In this document: piece after piece, positions 5,035 to 27,077 of the stretch | How positions within the stretch are numbered: the stretch's first letter is position 1 | Layout: every line of letters begins with the position of its first letter | Source of the DNA: Halosolutus gelatinilyticus | GTDB lineage: Archaea; Halobacteriota; Halobacteria; Halobacteriales; Natrialbaceae | Direction: 5' to 3' | Length of the DNA stretch: 64,000 nt | Assembly: GCF_023028105.1 (NCBI RefSeq) | Contig: NZ_CP095491.1 | Coordinates: forward strand, 3,224,001 to 3,288,000 | The notes under the pieces: model-generated | What the model saw: the letters and a program-made list of their open reading frames with translations, nothing else | Database searches by the model: none | Told to the model about the DNA's origin: nothing | Translations under genes and position numbers: made by a program

Positions 5035-5700
5035 TCACCGGCGGGAGAGCGGGAGCCAATCGGTGGTCAGCCCCCGATCGCGGAGGTCCCATTGCTGTTC
5101 GTACGAATCGCCGCGCGATCGAACCTCGACGATCGCGTCGAATAGCGGTTCGAAGAGGACGACGGCCTCGTGGGCTCGATCGAGCGGCAGGTGGTAGTGG
5201 CCCATCCCCCGAGCGCGATCGACCCGCGAGGTCGTCATCTGAAGCAGTCGAAACACCGTTTCGGCCGCGTGCTCCTCGAGCAACGGGACCAGCGAATCGA
5301 CGCAGACCCGGAGTTCGGCCGGGTCGAGGCCGTGGGCCACGGCTTCGAGGTCGTCGATCGCTTCGATGATTTCGATCCCGAGCCTCCCGATCGGCGTCCG
5401 ATCCGAGGCCGTCGGGACGTCGAGCGCGGCGCGTTCGAGCGCGGCGTAGTCGATCATCCGCATCGTCTCCGTCGTCGAGTCCCGTTCGTGAGCTACCCGC
5501 CGATCGTCGCCGTTCGTGACGAAGAGCCGGTAGCGCGAACCGTGACTCGTTTCCCCCAGCAACCGGTGACAGATGGCGTGATGAACGTCGGCCGTGTCCG
5601 CCCCCACGAGTAGCAGGTTGCTCCCCTCCCGCTTGAGCGTCGTAAGCGCCTGCGCAAACGTCGCCAGATCGGAAGAGCCGCGCCCGGACTCGCGTTCCAT
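5035..5700 (-). CDS. RecA/KaiC-fold-like haloarchaeal protein (DUF7504-like)
   Basis: The protein has 221 residues. The order of elements recalls a RecA-type core: a first strand GSNLLLVGADTADVHHAICH where Walker A would sit but with no GxxxxGK, then YRLFVTNGDD, a Walker B-like LRVCVDSLVPLLEEH, and a C-terminal REMTTSRV-like helix-strand region ending YEQQWDLRDRG. I think it belongs to the haloarchaeal family DUF7504, by memory only. With no intact P-loop it probably does not hydrolyse ATP. An ATTTATT element about 35 bases upstream is a possible TATA box. Confidence 0.6.
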   Translation of the reverse strand: MERESGRGSSDLATFAQALTTLKREGSNLLLVGADTADVHHAICHRLLGETSHGSRYRLFVTNGDDRRVAHERDSTTETMRMIDYAALERAALDVPTASDRTPIGRLGIEIIEAIDDLEAVAHGLDPAELRVCVDSLVPLLEEHAAETVFRLLQMTTSRVDRARGMGHYHLPLDRAHEAVVLFEPLFDAIVEVRSRGDSYEQQWDLRDRGLTTDWLPLSRR

Positions 5701-8434: not shown

Positions 8435-10825
8435 ATGGTCGAACACACGAGGACCCTCGGTTTCTGGGTGGCCTTCGCGCTGGGGCTGGGGACGATGATC
8501 GCTGCCGGCATCTTCTCGCTCTCGGGGACCGCGGTGGCCGCGATCGGAAGTAGCGCGGTTATCGCGTTCGTCATCGCGGCGCTCATCGCGGGGGTGACGG
8601 CGGCCTCGTACTCCGAATTCGCCTCGATTTACGCGGAGAACGGCGGCGGCTACCTGTTCAGCTCGCGAACGTTCGATCGCGATCTCTTGGAATACGCGGT
8701 CGGCGTGTCACTATTCTTGGGGTATACGGGGACGACCGCGTTCTATCTCGCGACGATGGACGAGTGGTTCTTCGAGTTCATCTTGCCACACGGGTGGCCG
8801 GTCCCTCACGGAACGATCGGCGTGCTGGCAGCTATCCTTCTGGGCTCGCTAAACGCCCGGGGGACCGAGGAGAGCGGGACCTTTCAGGTCCTCGTCAGCG
8901 GGGCGAAAGTCGCCGTTCTCATCGCGTTCATCGCCGGTGCCTTCGCGTACAAAGCACCGGCAGAGACGGTCGGAACGTTCACTGCGGCCGTCTCGACCGA
9001 CGTCACGGGAATCGTCTCGATCGCCGCACTCGCGTTCATCACGTTCTTCGGCTTCTCGGCCATCGCTGCCAGCGCGGGCGAAATCATCGAACCCCGAAAG
9101 ACGGTTCCCCGCGCCATCGCGGCGAGCATCGTCGCCGTCACGATCCTCTACGCGTTCGTCATCGTCGCGATGGTCAACGCCCCGATCCCGGCCGAAGTCA
9201 TCGCGGAAGAGGGCGAAACGGCGATGGGAAGCGTCGCGAACGCCTTCCTCGGGAGTATCGGCATGGCGCTGATCGTTGCGGGTGCGATCTTCAGCATGGT
9301 GAGTGCGTCAAACGCGAGCGTGCTCGCCGCCAGTAGCATCGGGTCGCTGATGGGGCGACAGGGGCAGGCACCGCGGCGCTTCTCCCGCATTCATCCGGTC
9401 TACGGCACGCCGTTCTGGAGCGTTACGACCGTCACTGCGACCATCGTCACCCTCATCGTCGGGTTCATCATGCTGTTTCCCGCCGAGGGTGGACTTGGCG
9501 GCATGTCTCTCGGGCTCGAAGCTCTGACCGGGTTCGCGACGTTCAATCTGCTCGCTCCCCTGTCGGTCGTCAACATCGCGCTCATCGTCTCGCGGCGGCG
9601 TTTTCCCGACATCGAGCGGCCGATCCGCGTCCCGCTCGTGCCGCTGGTACCGATCATCGGCATTCTGGCGAACCTGGCACTCATTACGAATCTACCGACC
9701 ATTGGCGTCGTTGTCGGGACGGTACTCGTCGGTGCGTTGCTCGCCGCCTATCTGATCTGGGGCGGGGCTCCGGAGACCGAAGAGCTGTTCGAGCGGGTCG
9801 TCTCTCCGTACTCGCCGGACGAGATGGCGGCGCAGTCGGCCGCCAGTGGCGGCGGATCCGCGGCCGAAGCAACGCCGATCGAATCGACCAGCAACGGGAC
9901 GGCAGCGACGGACGCGGACCGCTTCCGGCTCCTCGTTCCCGTCCGTCGGCCCGACCGCGCGCCGGCACACGTTCGACTGGCGGCAACGATCGGGAGTCTC
10001 CACGCGAGTAATCCGCTAATCCGGGTCGTCAACGTGACCCAGATTCCGGACCAGACACCGAGCGAGATGGTCACCGAAACCGCCGAGGAACGCGCGTCGC
10101 GAATCGGCGACGTACTCGCCGCTGCCGACATCGACGTCGACTACACCGTCGAGGGGCACATTTCGCGCGACGTCGGGTTCAGCATCGTCCAGGCGGCCAG
10201 AAACGAGCAGGCCGACCTGATTCTCATGGGGTATCCGGAGGAAAGCGCCGACGTAACCCAGCGCGTCGAGTTCGACGCCCCCTGCGACGTGCTGTTTTCC
10301 AGCGGGTTCATCGAACGAGGGTTGGGGGTGCCGGCCACCGTCAACGTCGGGGCGGGCGGCGGACCGCACCACGAGGCGCTGTTACCCTTCGTCAACGACC
10401 TCGCCGAAGACGGATCGAAGATTCACGTCATCAACGTCCGCCCCACCGGCGAGGTCGGCACTGCCGAAAATCCCGGACGTACGCTGAACGCCCTCCCGGC
10501 GGCGGGATCGGTCGAGGTTCACAACGTCACCGCCGACTCGGTCGCCGAGGGACTCGTGACGACGGCGGTAGAGAACGGCGGGATACTCGTTATCGGTGCG
10601 TCGCGGACGCGTCGCCTCCGGCAGTGGATTCTCGGGAGCACCCCGGATCGCGTCATTGACCTCGCGGATGACGCCGACGTTCCCGTTATCGTCTACGCGA
10701 GCGAGCCGAGCGTTCGCGGCGTGGCAGAGGACCTCCTCTTCCCGATCTACAGGTACCTCGCGAAGCTTGGAACACCGGATCGTCCGGTCTTAGAACGGGA
10801 GCGATCCGGAGACGTGGAGAGATAA
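8435..10825 (+). CDS. APC-family amino-acid permease fused to two UspA domains
   Basis: The protein has 796 residues, starting at ATG 8435 (MVEHTRTLGFWVAFALGLGT). Residues 1 to about 455 form a 12-helix APC transporter: GLGTMIAAGIFSLSGTAVAA is the TM1 unwound segment and AFITFFGFSAIAASAGEII a TM6-like helix. A Ser/Gly/Ala linker of about 40 residues follows. Two universal-stress-protein domains come next, one at about 495-635 (RLLVPVRRP) and a weaker one to about 775 (ILVIGASRTRRLRQWILGST). It probably imports amino acids or similar solutes, with the UspA part sensing nucleotide in the cytoplasm. It diverges from the thiolase operon. Confidence 0.9.
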   Translation: MVEHTRTLGFWVAFALGLGTMIAAGIFSLSGTAVAAIGSSAVIAFVIAALIAGVTAASYSEFASIYAENGGGYLFSSRTFDRDLLEYAVGVSLFLGYTGTTAFYLATMDEWFFEFILPHGWPVPHGTIGVLAAILLGSLNARGTEESGTFQVLVSGAKVAVLIAFIAGAFAYKAPAETVGTFTAAVSTDVTGIVSIAALAFITFFGFSAIAASAGEIIEPRKTVPRAIAASIVAVTILYAFVIVAMVNAPIPAEVIAEEGETAMGSVANAFLGSIGMALIVAGAIFSMVSASNASVLAASSIGSLMGRQGQAPRRFSRIHPVYGTPFWSVTTVTATIVTLIVGFIMLFPAEGGLGGMSLGLEALTGFATFNLLAPLSVVNIALIVSRRRFPDIERPIRVPLVPLVPIIGILANLALITNLPTIGVVVGTVLVGALLAAYLIWGGAPETEELFERVVSPYSPDEMAAQSAASGGGSAAEATPIESTSNGTAATDADRFRLLVPVRRPDRAPAHVRLAATIGSLHASNPLIRVVNVTQIPDQTPSEMVTETAEERASRIGDVLAAADIDVDYTVEGHISRDVGFSIVQAARNEQADLILMGYPEESADVTQRVEFDAPCDVLFSSGFIERGLGVPATVNVGAGGGPHHEALLPFVNDLAEDGSKIHVINVRPTGEVGTAENPGRTLNALPAAGSVEVHNVTADSVAEGLVTTAVENGGILVIGASRTRRLRQWILGSTPDRVIDLADDADVPVIVYASEPSVRGVAEDLLFPIYRYLAKLGTPDRPVLERERSGDVER

Positions 10826-18478: not shown

Positions 18479-19297
18479 CTAGTTGAGGATGCTCTGGGCG
18501 ACCGTCGCGAGCTGGCCGTTGTCGGCCTCACGCAGTCGGTCGTCGCCGATTTTCAGTCGCAGGCGCGGACGGCCGACATCGATCGGGACCTTCTCGGTGT
18601 CGATCAGACCCATGTCTTCGAGCTTGGTCTTGGTGCGGGAGAACGTCGCCTTCGAGGCGATGCCGACGTCTTCGCCCCACTTGCTGATGTCGTACAGCAG
18701 GGCCTCGTTCTTCGCGGCGACCAGCAGCGAGATGGTAACTTCGTCGAGGCCATCGCCGTCGCCGCGGGCGGTCTCGAGCGAGTTGAGAATGGCGGTGAAG
18801 TCCTCTTCGGCGTCGGGGCTGATCTCCTCGGAGAGCGTATCGCGAACGCTCGAAATCGGCGGCGTTCGGAGGTTGAACGTGTCGGCGTCCTCCCAGCGGG
18901 CCGCGTACGTCTCGTAGGTATCCTCGACGAAGCTCTCGTCGTCGGTGACGAGGCCGCCGACGCGATCGCCGGCGTGCACGACGGCGATGACGCGATCTCC
19001 CGTGACCAGAAGCGAATTCTCCGGCGCCTCCTTGAGCGTGCGCAGCGCGAGCGCGTCCTCGACGATGAGATCGGCGGCGTTGGAAGCGACGATGAAGTCG
19101 TCCATAACCTCCTTCAGGGTGCGCTCGTCGGCGAGCATGTGGACTGCCGGAAGCGTGCCGTCGAACTCCGTTGCGACGGTCACGAACTCTTCGATAGCTT
19201 CTCGCGACGGGTTGACCATGTACACGTCTCCGCTCGCGTCCTCGAGCACGGACGCGAGGATATCGTCAATCTGATGATTGAGTAAATTCGAGGTCAT
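18479..19297 (-). CDS. tbsP: Transcriptional regulator TbsP
   Basis: The protein has 272 residues. It matches haloarchaeal TbsP (DUF5821): NLLNHQIDDILASVLEDASG at the N-terminus, an alpha/beta sensor region with LLVTGDRVIAVVHAGDRVGG, and a C-terminal winged helix, ISLLVAAKNEALLYDISKWG followed by GIASKATFSRTKTKLEDMGL. In Haloferax volcanii TbsP acts with TrmB on glycolysis/gluconeogenesis genes such as gapII (established knowledge, recalled). The promoter carries a TTAAGTAA box with nearly leaderless spacing. An inverted-repeat region lies just upstream and could be an autoregulatory site. Confidence 0.85.
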   Translation of the reverse strand: MTSNLLNHQIDDILASVLEDASGDVYMVNPSREAIEEFVTVATEFDGTLPAVHMLADERTLKEVMDDFIVASNAADLIVEDALALRTLKEAPENSLLVTGDRVIAVVHAGDRVGGLVTDDESFVEDTYETYAARWEDADTFNLRTPPISSVRDTLSEEISPDAEEDFTAILNSLETARGDGDGLDEVTISLLVAAKNEALLYDISKWGEDVGIASKATFSRTKTKLEDMGLIDTEKVPIDVGRPRLRLKIGDDRLREADNGQLATVAQSILN

Positions 19298-19688: not shown

Positions 19689-21761
19689 TCACGGGTCGAA
19701 GTGAGACGACAGTTCTTTTGACCAGTAGACGTCCCCGTTGTAGATCACCGACGACTCCGATTCCGCGAGCAGGGACGCCAGTTCCGATTCGGAGAGCGTG
19801 AAGTTGGACTCGTTGCCACAGAGGTAGGCGTACTCGTTGTCCTCGGTGTGCGGGAAGTAGTACGAACCGGTCACCCGCGTCGAGTAGCAGTCGAACGTCA
19901 CCAGGTACTCGTCGTCGCCGTCGTCGAGTTCGGCAATTCGCACGGTCGTCGGCTCTCCCTGAGTGAGCGAGTGCGTGCCGTCGCCGACCACCGCGTAGTC
20001 TTTGCCCATCATGATGCGCCGACGGGCGAGACACATCGCGCGTTCGATGCTGAATCCGTGAACGAGGAGTTTGGCGAACGTCGATCCCACCTTGACCGCG
20101 TGGTCGTTGAGCACCTTCGTAAACGTCACTGCGCCCGCGACGCTGCCCTTCTCGATCAGGGTCATCCCCTCGTAGAACGAGCCGCAGGCGTTCAGGAAGA
20201 ACGTCTGGACGCCACACCGATCGAGGCTCGTCGTCGAGAGGTAGCCGTCGGGACAGCGGAGGCCGTCGGTTTCGCAATGGCCGATGTAGTGGACGAAATC
20301 GTAGTCGCTCTCGAAGACCCGGGCGAGCTCGCTCGTCCTGAGCGACTCCGTGACGGTGACGTCCATCGTCAGCTCCGTGGACCGCTGGCGGTAGATCTCC
20401 GCGACGTGGTCGTGCTCGCCGACCATCTCCGGATCGTTCAGGACGACGCAGATCGACGTGGCGTCGCTCGTTCGCTCGAGGTAGGACAGCCGGTTGCGGT
20501 AGGCTTCGGGCGCCGACTTGAAGACGTCGATCGGGACGCCGTCCGCGAGCCAGCCGTGGACCCGGCCGTTGCGGAGTTCAGGTTTGACGATATCGACCGA
20601 CGCGACCTGGCCGGCGCTGGCGCGGCCGACCCTCGTCGGGGTGTTGCGGTAGAAATCTTCGAGCGAGCGCTCGACCAGCTCTCGACCCTGCAGCTCCGAT
20701 GTTCGGGGCAGGTAAATCATGCTCATGCGATCGAGGAGGAACGGGAGCGTATCGACGTTGTCGCGGCTCGGCGTGACGTACGTCGAGAGGTGCCACTCCG
20801 GAAGCCGGTGTTCGATCGCCGCGTACGGAACGTCGAGGTACCTGTCGAGTCGCTCCTGCGGGGACGCGTCGTAGAGCTCGGCGGCGTCGAGTTCGAGCGC
20901 CTCGAGGAGATTCACTTCCGCGAGCGTGGTTCCGTACGGCCCCGCGTTGCGTGCCAGGCAGTCGAGGAAGAACGTCTTCCGGAGCAGCCGTTCGACGTCG
21001 TGCTCGAGGTCGGGAAGCGAAGCGAGTTCCGACTCGCGGCCGACGTCGGCGAGGCGGAGTCGCGGTCGCTCGCCGTCGTCGAGCCGCACCGCCGCCTGCA
21101 GGTAGTACGCGAGCGGCGCCGTAACGAACAGCGACTCGTACTCCGGCGGCACGTGCAGTTCGATTCCGGTATCCGGCGTGTCCGATCGGATGCAATCGGC
21201 GACCGCTAGGTCGTCGTTGCGTTCGATCAGCGGCGGGTGGCCCCTGAGGGTCGGATACGTTCGATCCGGGCCGGTGGTCTTGTGCGAGGAGGCGAGGTGA
21301 GAGATCGCGGTCGCGAGTCCGTCGGGCGTGTCGGGAACCGCGATCGTCCCGGCCGGAAGTTCGTGGCGACTCCGGAATCCGAGGATCGTCCGGGTCCGCT
21401 CGGGAAACGTGACGACGGTCGACTCGAAGTCGTCGGTCTTCTCGACCGTTGCGGCGCCCGAGAAGCGCAGGTACGCCTTGATCTCGGTGTCGATATCGAG
21501 GATGTACTCGCCGGGCGGCAACGAGAGCGGTGCGCCCGCAGGATCGAGTTCGTACCGATCGGACGAGCCGAGCGAGAAGGCGTAGACGACGGCGTGGGGG
21601 AACCGAAGCTCTTCCGCCGTCACCACGACCGTGTCGTCGACGGGTCGCGGAACGTCGGGACCCGATCCGTCGACGAGGAGGTTCGTCCCGCGAACCGACA
21701 GCTCGGCGTTGTCCGCGTCGGTCACGTGGAGGGTTCCGTCGCCAACCTCCCACTCTATCAT
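19689..21761 (-). CDS. CHAT-domain (caspase-like) protein
   Basis: The protein has 690 residues. The C-terminal third (about 450-610) carries a CHAT peptidase fold with both catalytic residues: His495 in DFVHYIGHCETDG and Cys526 in TFFLNACGSFYEG, with a final strand GAVTFTKVLNDHAVKVG. Residues 1 to about 110 look like a beta-rich domain (PPGEYILDIDTEIKAYLRFS). The middle has conserved motifs but no named domain. No signal peptide or membrane helix is visible, so it is probably cytosolic. It stands alone, with tbsP downstream and glyA divergent. In bacteria, CHAT proteases are often activated by partner proteins and cleave targets in immunity or cell death. Here no partner or substrate gene is adjacent. 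Confidence 0.85.
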   Translation of the reverse strand: MIEWEVGDGTLHVTDADNAELSVRGTNLLVDGSGPDVPRPVDDTVVVTAEELRFPHAVVYAFSLGSSDRYELDPAGAPLSLPPGEYILDIDTEIKAYLRFSGAATVEKTDDFESTVVTFPERTRTILGFRSRHELPAGTIAVPDTPDGLATAISHLASSHKTTGPDRTYPTLRGHPPLIERNDDLAVADCIRSDTPDTGIELHVPPEYESLFVTAPLAYYLQAAVRLDDGERPRLRLADVGRESELASLPDLEHDVERLLRKTFFLDCLARNAGPYGTTLAEVNLLEALELDAAELYDASPQERLDRYLDVPYAAIEHRLPEWHLSTYVTPSRDNVDTLPFLLDRMSMIYLPRTSELQGRELVERSLEDFYRNTPTRVGRASAGQVASVDIVKPELRNGRVHGWLADGVPIDVFKSAPEAYRNRLSYLERTSDATSICVVLNDPEMVGEHDHVAEIYRQRSTELTMDVTVTESLRTSELARVFESDYDFVHYIGHCETDGLRCPDGYLSTTSLDRCGVQTFFLNACGSFYEGMTLIEKGSVAGAVTFTKVLNDHAVKVGSTFAKLLVHGFSIERAMCLARRRIMMGKDYAVVGDGTHSLTQGEPTTVRIAELDDGDDEYLVTFDCYSTRVTGSYYFPHTEDNEYAYLCGNESNFTLSESELASLLAESESSVIYNGDVYWSKELSSHFDP

Positions 21762-21763
21762 TC

Positions 21764-21798
21764 GATGTGCTACATCTCACTCCGACAAGTTAGATGTA
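21764..21798. promoter_or_regulatory. Overlapping dyads directly before the CHAT gene
   Basis: GATGT-GCT-ACATC (21764-21776) ends 3 bases before the ATG of the CHAT gene on the minus strand. TACATCT (21771-21777) also pairs with AGATGTA (21792-21798) across 14 bases. Three half-sites of the same GATGT motif thus sit in 35 bases at the start of the gene. This is the arrangement expected of a repressor or dimer-binding site. The bound protein is unknown. Confidence 0.45.
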
Positions 21799-21939
21799 TC
21801 GGGTGAACAGAAAAAACAAATCACAACAGAGGACCAGTTGCTGGGGCGATCGACCCGGGTGCGGCGCGCTGTGACGGAGCGTGGAATCGGACGCTTCCGC
21901 CGTCGATGTAGTGGCTCGACTTGCCGGGGAAGGCTACAC

Positions 21940-21945
21940 TTATAC
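21940..21945 (+). promoter_or_regulatory. TATA box of glyA
   Basis: TTATAC lies 24-29 bases before the ATG at 21969, so the glyA mRNA should be leaderless. This supports the ATG at 21969 over the longer upstream frame. Confidence 0.6.
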
Positions 21946-21968
21946 GGTCGGCAGACCGCATTTCGCGC

Positions 21969-23216
21969 ATGGAACACGAGCACGTCCGGAACGTCGATCC
22001 CGCCGTCGCCGACGCTCTCGAAGGTGAGGTCGATCGCCAGCGAAACGGCTTGCAGATGATCGCGAGCGAGAACCACGTCAGCGAGGCGGTCCTCGACGCG
22101 CAGGGCAGCGTCCTCACGAACAAGTACGCGGAGGGCTATCCCGGGTCGCGCTACTACGGCGGCTGCGAGTACGCCGACGAGATCGAACAACTGGCGATCG
22201 ATCGCGCCACGGAGCTGTTCGGCGCCGAACACGTCAACGTCCAGCCCCACTCGGGCACGCAGGCCAACCAGGCCGTCTACTTCGCGATGCTCGAACCGGG
22301 CGACAAGATCCTCTCGCTCGATCTGACCCACGGCGGCCACCTCAGCCACGGCCACCCGGCGAACTTCGTCGGGCAGCTCTACGACGTCGAGCAGTACGAG
22401 GTCGACCCCGGGACGGGATACCTCGACTACGAGGGCCTCGCCGATCTCGCCGAGGAGTTCGAACCCGACGTCATCGTCTCGGGCTACTCCGCCTACCCGC
22501 GCGAAATCGACTTCGAGCGCGTCCAGGAGACGGCCGACGAGGTCGGCGCGTACCACCTCGCGGACATCGCGCACATCACCGGCCTCGTCGCCGCCGGCGT
22601 CCATGAGTCGCCGGTCGGCGTCGCCGACTTCGTCACCGGGTCGACCCACAAGACCATCCGGGCCGGCCGCGGCGGCATCGTCATGACGACCGAGGAGTTC
22701 GCAGACGACATCGATTCGGCGGTCTTCCCCGGCGGTCAGGGCGGCCCGCTCATGCACAACGTCGCCGGCAAGGCCGTCGGCTTCAAGGAGGCCCTCCAAC
22801 CCGAGTTCGAGGACTACGCCGAGCAGACCGTCACGAATGCGAAGGCCCTCGGCGAGCGCCTCTCCGAGAACGGCTTCTCGCTGGTCTCCGGCGGGACCGA
22901 CAACCACCTCGTGCTCGTCGACCTGCGGGAGAGCCACCCCGAGACGTCCGGCGGCGACGCCGAAGAAGCCCTCGAAGCGGCCGGTATCGTCCTCAACGGG
23001 AACACCGTCCCCGGCGAGACCCGATCGGCGTTCGACCCAAGCGGCATCCGCGCCGGCACCCCCGCCCTGACGACCCGCGGCTTCGACGAGGACGACTGCC
23101 GCCGCGTCGCCGATCTGATTACCCGGGTCGTCGACGCCCCCGAAGACGAGTCCGTCATCGAGGAGGTCCGCGAAGAAGTGCGGGCGCTCTGCGACGAGAA
23201 CCCGCTGTACGAGTAA
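21969..23216 (+). CDS. glyA: Serine hydroxymethyltransferase
   Basis: The protein has 415 residues. The signature of this PLP enzyme is complete: LQMIASENHVSEAVLDAQGS, GYPGSRYYGGCEYAD, NVQPHSGTQANQAVYFAMLE, and the PLP-lysine motif TGSTHKTIRAGRGG with Lys228. It interconverts serine and glycine with tetrahydrofolate, supplying one-carbon units. FolD lies 1.2 kb downstream on the same strand, which fits a shared C1 role. Length is typical. I chose the ATG at 21969 because a TATA box precedes it at leaderless distance. Confidence 0.96.
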   Translation: MEHEHVRNVDPAVADALEGEVDRQRNGLQMIASENHVSEAVLDAQGSVLTNKYAEGYPGSRYYGGCEYADEIEQLAIDRATELFGAEHVNVQPHSGTQANQAVYFAMLEPGDKILSLDLTHGGHLSHGHPANFVGQLYDVEQYEVDPGTGYLDYEGLADLAEEFEPDVIVSGYSAYPREIDFERVQETADEVGAYHLADIAHITGLVAAGVHESPVGVADFVTGSTHKTIRAGRGGIVMTTEEFADDIDSAVFPGGQGGPLMHNVAGKAVGFKEALQPEFEDYAEQTVTNAKALGERLSENGFSLVSGGTDNHLVLVDLRESHPETSGGDAEEALEAAGIVLNGNTVPGETRSAFDPSGIRAGTPALTTRGFDEDDCRRVADLITRVVDAPEDESVIEEVREEVRALCDENPLYE

Positions 23217-26378: not shown

Positions 26379-27077
26379 ATGTCCCATCGAAGACTGGACA
26401 GACGGACGTTCGTTGCAGCAGCGGGTAGCGCAAGTGTGCTCGTTCTCGCTGGCTGTACCGACGGTGCAACCAATGGCGATGGCTCGGGAGGATCCGGCGA
26501 CGACGGGTCGGGTGACAACGAGAGTGACGGTAACGAGACGGGAGGCGGAACGGGTGACGAGACGTACACGCTCACGGTGACCGTCGAGACCGAAAACGGC
26601 GAGCCGGTCGAAGGTGCGACCGTTCGACTCATGGAAGCCAATGCGGCCGAGACGGGTGACGGTGGAGCCGGGAACGAAACCGACGCCGGCAACGAGACGG
26701 AGGGTGGAAACGAGACCGGAGACGGAATGGGCGGGAACGAAACCGAAGACGGAATGGGTGAGGGCGGAAACGAGACCGGAAACGAGACCGGAAACGAGAC
26801 CGGGAACGAGACCGGAAATGAGACCGGAGGCGGAGGCGCCGGCGCCGGCGAACTGACCGAAGAGGAAGACGAAACCGACCAGGAAGGCCAGGTCGAGTTC
26901 GACGACCTCGAGAACGGCGAATACACTGTCACCGCGGAACACGAAGAGGGAGAAGCGGAGGACAACGCCGAGATCGATGGCGGCGACGAGGAAGTCACCC
27001 TGACGCTCGGTGCCGGAGGGGCGGGCGGAACCGGCAACGAAACGGAGAACGAGACGGAGAACGCAACCGAGGTCTGA
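26379..27077 (+). CDS. Tat-exported lipoprotein with N-X-T sequon repeats
   Basis: The protein has 232 residues. The N-terminus has the Tat motif RRLDRRTFVAAAGSASVL and lipobox LAGC, so the mature protein should start with a lipid-modified Cys24-type residue on the outer face. A carboxypeptidase-regulatory-like beta domain begins YTLTVTVETENGEPVEGATV, is interrupted by about 60 residues, and resumes at QEGQVEFDDLENGEYTVTAE. The interrupting segment is mostly Gly-Asn-Glu-Thr repeats. Fourteen N-X-S/T sequons occur in total, so it could be heavily N-glycosylated. It is a single gene with unknown function. Confidence 0.8.
   Translation: MSHRRLDRRTFVAAAGSASVLVLAGCTDGATNGDGSGGSGDDGSGDNESDGNETGGGTGDETYTLTVTVETENGEPVEGATVRLMEANAAETGDGGAGNETDAGNETEGGNETGDGMGGNETEDGMGEGGNETGNETGNETGNETGNETGGGGAGAGELTEEEDETDQEGQVEFDDLENGEYTVTAEHEEGEAEDNAEIDGGDEEVTLTLGAGGAGGTGNETENETENATEV
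26766..26825 (+). repeat. Five tandem 12-bp repeats (GGAAACGAGACC) in the lipoprotein gene
   Basis: Five in-frame copies run head to tail, each encoding GNET. Copies one to three are identical, copy four begins GGG, and copy five has AATGAG for AACGAG. Four degenerate NET units precede them in the same gene. Such a run can expand or contract by replication slippage, changing the number of glycosylation sites. Confidence 0.9.

Follow-up and report, generated by a model that had tools for sequence, protein, structure and literature searches.

The gene at 19689-21761 of the window (the whole stretch of DNA analysed, 64,000 nucleotides) encodes a protein whose dyad and predicted fold are those of a clan CD/CHAT protease, and the family to which it belongs is part of the haloarchaeal core genome. 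The protease is of a known kind; what is new is a lineage-wide variant with recurring gene partners. Our explanation, to which we give about an even chance of being right, is that the protein is an active-type protease which would be gated by a signal through its N-terminal region and would make a limited, regulatory cut, with the transcriptional regulator TbsP as the likeliest pathway partner or substrate of the copy in the window. Its mode of action is best read as resembling that of HetF or separase rather than that of a mobile defence effector.

The gene and its upstream region

The reading frame and the sequence in front of it comprise the following features:

19689-21761, minus strand: CHAT (clan CD) cysteine protease gene, 690 aa (ORF, 70 relatives, AF2 model, Foldseek/VIA matches)
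21787-21803, minus strand, about -42 to -26 from the ATG: conserved upstream element, probable core promoter (9 aligned sequences)

The frame is intact from ATG to stop (690 codons). A scan of 84,980 species genomes revealed relatives at 70 distinct loci, all of them haloarchaeal by record title, with most of the length covered and 42-75% identity in the best segment. Because relatives are encoded at 70 haloarchaeal loci with invariant dyad residues, a chance ORF or an antisense artefact has been rejected.

Upstream dyads had been taken to suggest controlled expression. There is indeed a single 11-bp inverted repeat at 21771-21798, but its arms vary in 8 relatives, and it was discarded as a conserved operator. 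The element at about -42 to -26 is common to 9/9 aligned sequences and is more likely a core promoter.

Catalytic site and predicted fold

CHAT proteases (PF12770) carry the catalytic His in an HxxGH motif and the Cys in an xNAC motif. The corresponding segments of the window protein are HYIGHC, which holds His495, and LNACGS, which holds Cys526:

19959-20474, minus strand: catalytic CHAT/caspase-like domain, residues 430-601 (VIA match to 8tl0_D)
20277-20279, minus strand: His495 codon (70/70 relatives; 73/85 other family copies)
20184-20186, minus strand: Cys526 codon (70/70 relatives; 72/85 other family copies)

The original prediction of a complete dyad is well founded: far from being lost in most orthologs, both residues are invariant in all 70 haloarchaeal relatives, and they are also kept in three paralogues from the same genome that share 31-34% identity with the window protein.

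An AlphaFold2 model built on the family alignment has a mean pLDDT of 87.2 and a pTM of 0.87. Foldseek ranks SAVED-CHAT (8tl0) first for this model (E 1.4e-8), followed by separase, gingipain, and Csx29. With VIA-align, residues 430-601 superimpose on 8tl0_D with Z 17.8 (2.4 A, 171 residues), about residues 322-601 give a two-lobed match to separase/gingipain (Z about 17, identity 10-15%), and residues 331-596 match Csx29 (7y85_D) with Z 13.4 over 218 residues. Separase 5fby aligns across 147-602 with an rmsd of 5.9, residues 147-322 being loosely matched. The model thus has the caspase/separase-like fold by which CHAT proteases are recognised and, since fold and dyad agree, the window protein is of the clan CD/CHAT type, with proteolysis as its putative activity.

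At the sequence level, Pfam CHAT matches at E<=1 were obtained for 15 of the 49 members of the family alignment A1 (the window protein, 45 of the 70 named relatives, and the three own-genome paralogues), with a best value of 1.9e-5. The window protein is not among them; as a genome frame it scores 9.8 bits against a cut-off of 24 bits. It has no match in Pfam (E<=1), NCBIfam (E<=0.1), or PADLOC (E<=1), and neither phmmer nor a profile search of PDB sequences gave a believable hit. The CHAT identification is borne out by the dyad, the Pfam matches of family members, and the predicted fold taken together.

Among solved relatives, the SAVED-CHAT filament protease (8tl0) is the best match to residues 430-601 and has the same His/Cys dyad, but the structural match covers the CHAT part alone and the window gene lies in a housekeeping neighbourhood. 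A SAVED sensor domain was not found in the window protein at Pfam E<=1, none being recognised because the protein has no Pfam match at all. Csx29/TPR-CHAT of Craspase shares the CHAT fold (7y85_D); however, the window protein has no TPR match, and the neighbours scanned include no type III-E CRISPR effector. The clan CD proteases separase and gingipain share the two-lobed architecture but differ in their N-terminal domains, apart from the low identity, and no cohesin or secretion link was seen for the window protein.

The N-terminal region

Two segments can be distinguished in front of the catalytic domain:

21366-21761, minus strand: N-terminal all-beta domain, residues 1-132, beta-supersandwich-like (borderline; VIA Z 8.4 to 3dec)
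20742-21263, minus strand: N-terminal conserved core, residues 167-340 (12 positions, each in at least 126/134 sequences)

The caspase-like part starts near residue 322 according to the separase/gingipain match or near residue 430 according to the SAVED-CHAT match. With a start near 322, the non-CHAT N-terminus comprises about 320 aa and not the 450 aa previously assigned to it; the accompanying remark that this region is not a standard CHAT companion has stood, as no Pfam domain was found and no TPR is present in the window protein (Pfam E<=1; the N-terminal model is beta, then mixed alpha/beta). Modelled alone, residues 1-350 reach a pLDDT of 92.9, with the all-beta domain at 1-132 and a mixed alpha/beta structure after it. 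A Foldseek search with residues 1-350 returned only GH31-type matches (best E 6.9e-4, high rmsd), and residues 1-132 resemble beta-supersandwich domains of sugar enzymes at a borderline level (best VIA Z 8.4, 3dec, 122 residues), which falls short of clear homology to a non-proteolytic enzyme. Residues 143-320 gave no convincing structural match with Foldseek or VIA, from which a new fold should not be concluded.

The core positions are R167, P170, R173, H175, P176, L217, Y220, A223, D267, R271, W323, and P340, each found in at least 126 of 134 sequences. Seven of them (R167, P170, R173, P176, D267, R271, W323) persist in 129 or more of the 134 sequences, copies without the dyad included. Such copies are not rare: 13 of the 85 family copies outside the main arrangement lack His, Cys, or both, although in two of these the matched part stops before the site. 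Since the N-terminal core is retained in dyad-less copies, its function outlives the catalytic site there. It might be supposed on these grounds that the core is the working part of the protein, serving as a signalling scaffold or a ligand binder, while proteolysis is secondary and the CHAT domain perhaps acts only on itself; we regard this as quite improbable, as both catalytic residues are present in 70/70 main copies.

The dyad-deficient CHAT copies that retain the N-terminal core are located at L157, L165, L167, L168, L202, L225, and L227-L231. Eight of the dyad-deficient copies share one clade, and two tandem pairs (L165, L168) are found.

Distribution and inheritance

A profile search found the CHAT family in 365 of 391 haloarchaeal genomes, with paralogues. 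In a phylum-wide sample it is present in 50 of 294 genomes, namely 46 of 53 haloarchaea and 4 of 241 others, the latter four all from one family. Distant CHAT members outside the haloarchaea were noted in G398, G407, G416, and G425 (family f19) with E from 1e-72 to 1e-82. In a phylogenetic tree (copies shorter than 450 aa left out; 15 of the 48 other A1 members used besides the window protein), a single branch with an SH-aLRT of 91 sets the tbsP-linked main copies apart from all paralogues, and the value rises to 100 once one dyad-less row (G045) is included. The tbsP-linked copies span several families. The simplest history of the main copy is that of an old core gene with a fixed place and several losses. 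A literature search that covered few subscription journals returned nothing on a CHAT domain in haloarchaea, Haloferax, or halophilic archaea, or in connection with KaiC-like proteins.

CHAT proteins of the defence type suggest another role, in which infection or severe stress frees the CHAT domain and essential proteins are then cut, so that the protein would be an effector of programmed death or antiviral defence. The best solved relatives found by Foldseek do include defence proteins (SAVED-CHAT 8tl0 and Csx29/TPR-CHAT 7zoq), some paralogues form tandem pairs, and 25 of 72,556 plasmid records carry family members, which are mostly annotated as hypothetical proteins (one as "caspase family protein", one as "CHAT domain-containing protein"). 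Against this, the main copy is inherited vertically and occupies one fixed housekeeping site in most families; a presence in 365/391 genomes contrasts with the patchy occurrence of defence genes; there is no PADLOC match and no relative was confirmed in a scan of viral contigs; and the partner genes described below belong to signal transduction. We therefore consider a death or defence effector unlikely. A mobile defence island as the main reading has been dismissed in view of the missing PADLOC match, the fixed locus, the presence in 365/391 genomes, and the lack of a confirmed relative in the viral contigs scanned.

A conserved place beside tbsP and glyA

The window gene was originally described as stand-alone, with no adjacent partner. 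Its neighbours are tbsP, RNase P, glyA, and folD, and no CRISPR gene was detected among the neighbours scanned. Two of these genes recur:

18479-19297, minus strand: TbsP transcriptional regulator, 272 aa (NF047393, 418 bits; adjoins the CHAT gene in 66/70 relatives)
21921-23216, plus strand: glyA (serine hydroxymethyltransferase), divergent neighbour (Pfam SHMT 1.3e-153; 68/70 relatives)

Comparison of the neighbourhoods among haloarchaeal relatives contradicts the absence of a partner: in 66 of 70 relatives, tbsP shares the strand of the CHAT gene and lies within 6 kb downstream of it, glyA is found on its opposite side in 68 of 70, and the paralogues recur with DUF7504 and REC-HalX genes (see below). 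In a 72-genome subset, TbsP is encoded in 70 genomes and CHAT in 53, and strict dependence of TbsP on CHAT has accordingly been rejected. When 119 CHAT rows (short fragments, including both G048 pieces, left out) were compared with 85 TbsP rows (the weakest left out), 36 CHAT-TbsP pairs were at most 5 kb apart, and 34 of these pairs share one order and strand, at distances of 78-992 bp; of the tbsP-clade CHAT copies, 34 of 35 are directly upstream of tbsP.

The fixed site of the main copy, taken alone, is a weak sign of a TbsP partnership. Where CHAT is missing from a fetched tbsP locus, glyA often adjoins tbsP all the same (14 of 22 loci), and a frozen gene order may therefore account for the position of the main copy beside tbsP; in addition, G033 (L170) has a main copy that retained glyA and lost tbsP, and 4 of the 70 relatives have no tbsP in the fetched flank. 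The main copy would then be a protease whose own trigger and substrate have no link to these neighbours. This possibility appears rather doubtful in view of a separate CHAT clade (genera g60 and g66), well apart from the main one, in which a TbsP paralogue lies alongside in three other arrangements: TbsP followed by CHAT in G180, CHAT followed by TbsP at 48-75 bp in G381, and divergent pairs in G229 (TbsP/CHAT) and G315 (TbsP/CHAT remnant). Because order and orientation vary, the pairing in this clade is not frozen synteny, and joint action of CHAT and TbsP proteins becomes more likely. In G302 and G367 (g60), the two genes sit on different contigs and are thus uninformative for pairing. In genus g30, a CHAT copy and a TbsP-like gene are about 2.4 kb apart in G006, G148, and G133 (with another gene between them in G006) and about 15 kb apart in G065; the G006 and G148 copies have lost the dyad.

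TbsP itself is a regulator. In the accessible text of two papers, tbsP mutations suppress the lethality of a trmB deletion, and the protein co-regulates gapII and affects motility and biofilm (PMC11834397, PMC13286277).

DUF7504 proteins and response regulators beside the paralogues

The main copy in the window has no DUF7504 gene next door, and a candidate for an unlinked partner is about 14 kb from the protease gene:

5035-5700, minus strand: DUF7504 (inactivated KaiC/RecA-like) protein of the CHAT-associated clade (Pfam 4.5e-53, tree)

The 85 CHAT copies outside the main arrangement, located in 78 fetched loci, are quite different in this respect. A DUF7504 gene (PF24336) is found no more than 3 kb from 36 of them, where about 1.3 would be expected from 6.1 DUF7504 genes per genome, assuming, as for the HalX estimate below, an even gene scatter over 3.6 Mb. 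In 25 cases it is directly upstream on the same strand (9-224 bp), in 7 downstream, and in 4 on the other strand; the remaining 49 copies lack it at this distance. When 78 DUF7504 rows were placed in a tree, they split with support of 100/99, and the 46-row side holds 27 of the 36 CHAT-adjacent rows, the window DUF7504, and four homologues located 10-14 kb from main copies. The 16 rows of CHAT-less genomes (the best ones, taken from 15 of the 19 such genomes in the subset) all fall outside this side.

With a profile of the CHAT-type DUF7504 at E<1e-20, 232 of the 365 CHAT-bearing genomes are matched and none of the 26 CHAT-less genomes is. Within genus g32, it is present in 10/10 CHAT-bearing genomes, one of which (G048) has only CHAT fragments, and in 0/3 CHAT-less ones. 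The 133 CHAT-bearing genomes below this threshold indicate that DUF7504 is not needed everywhere, and strict dependence of CHAT on it has been ruled out. With the patterns LVVGSV, RVCVDSL, and FDAVVEL in alignment A2, DUF7504 looks like a KaiC/RecA fold without the Walker A motif; a weak match of one member to Elongator Iki1 (Elp5-type) is in line with this reading. At L154 of the own genome (C1:198000-214000), a HalOD1-DUF7504 fusion protein is encoded at 9173-10507 directly upstream of a CHAT paralogue.

At 12 of the 78 loci, a member of a REC-HalX-type cluster lies no more than 3.5 kb from CHAT, about 1 such locus being expected from a background of 5.3 HalX per genome in 16 hand-picked genomes, many of them CHAT-bearing. 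These genes are often convergent, about 310 bp downstream; of six cluster members scanned, five match HalX and four of these also a receiver domain. At L155 of the own genome (C1:1810000-1829000), DUF7504, CHAT, REC-HalX on the opposite strand, and a second CHAT gene are found together. At L175, L183, L186, and L187, a gene for a short protein lies about 260-380 bp downstream of four CHAT paralogues and may represent a further partner; a Pfam scan of the L175 protein gave no match.

A probable signal-controlled regulatory protease

With TbsP-type regulators and a disabled KaiC-like protein as recurring gene partners, the window protein is unlikely to be an isolated curiosity and probably serves as a regulatory protease that is controlled by a signal. 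This reading follows from the partners being signalling proteins, the main locus being a housekeeping one, and TbsP being a regulator. In the proposed mechanism, a signal would reach the N-terminal region through a protein partner, which in many copies may be the DUF7504 inactivated-KaiC protein, often beside a REC-HalX response regulator. The C-terminal CHAT domain would then cut a regulatory target by limited cleavage, the neighbouring TbsP being the most likely pathway partner or substrate for the window copy.

The nearest working analogy is provided by HetF, which acts together with PatA on HetR levels. HetF of Anabaena/Nostoc is a CHAT-type putative protease for differentiation and cell division whose function is lost upon mutation of the active site, according to the accessible part of the source (PMC8406250). 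It would be a functional analogue that acts in regulation but has other domains and other partners. On the signalling side, HalX, HalOD1, and inactivated KaiC are described as haloarchaeal signal-transduction parts in PMC5847659; CHAT genes have DUF7504, HalOD1-DUF7504, and REC-HalX as partners, whereas a protease partner is not mentioned in the accessible portion of that paper.

A candidate for the caspase-like activity of Haloferax

Strong caspase-like activity has been reported for Haloferax volcanii, and the authors, in the accessible part of their paper, stated that archaea have no gene homologues (PMC3615174). Genus g43 is probably Haloferax, judging by plasmid matches: for a 20-kb stretch of one member, the six best are all from Haloferax (52-71% covered, 80-82% identity), and for another member the best, at low coverage, comes from Haloferax larsenii. 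Each of the 15 g43 genomes carries a single CHAT match together with a CHAT-type DUF7504, and in 5/5 fetched loci DUF7504, a dyad-bearing CHAT gene, and a convergent REC-HalX gene stand together. The g43 copy is a paralogue, not an orthologue, of the window gene. Haloferax volcanii itself is matched in searches for TbsP, DUF7504, and HalX; the lack of a Pfam CHAT match there is uninformative because this model barely detects the family (9.8 against 24 bits for the window protein).

The DUF7504-linked CHAT copy of g43 is thus a candidate for the gene behind the orphan activity. With an intact-dyad caspase-fold family in 365/391 haloarchaeal genomes, the long-standing biochemical question can be put to the test by knocking out one gene, and a positive outcome would link the inactivated KaiC-like signalling family to an enzymatic output. 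In Haloferax, cell shape and motility are under the control of DdfA, a HalOD1 protein, according to the accessible text of PMC10869688 and PMC7824242, which shows that this signalling toolkit controls cell programmes. A still broader and rather improbable proposal is a lineage-wide system of regulated proteolysis, in which CHAT proteases gated by DUF7504 and two-component regulators would cut TbsP-type factors to switch cell programmes, their genes being those behind the Haloferax volcanii activity.

Elsewhere in the window, the ORF at 26379-27077 encodes a lipoprotein-like product with many GNET repeats, an ordinary low-complexity haloarchaeal secreted protein.
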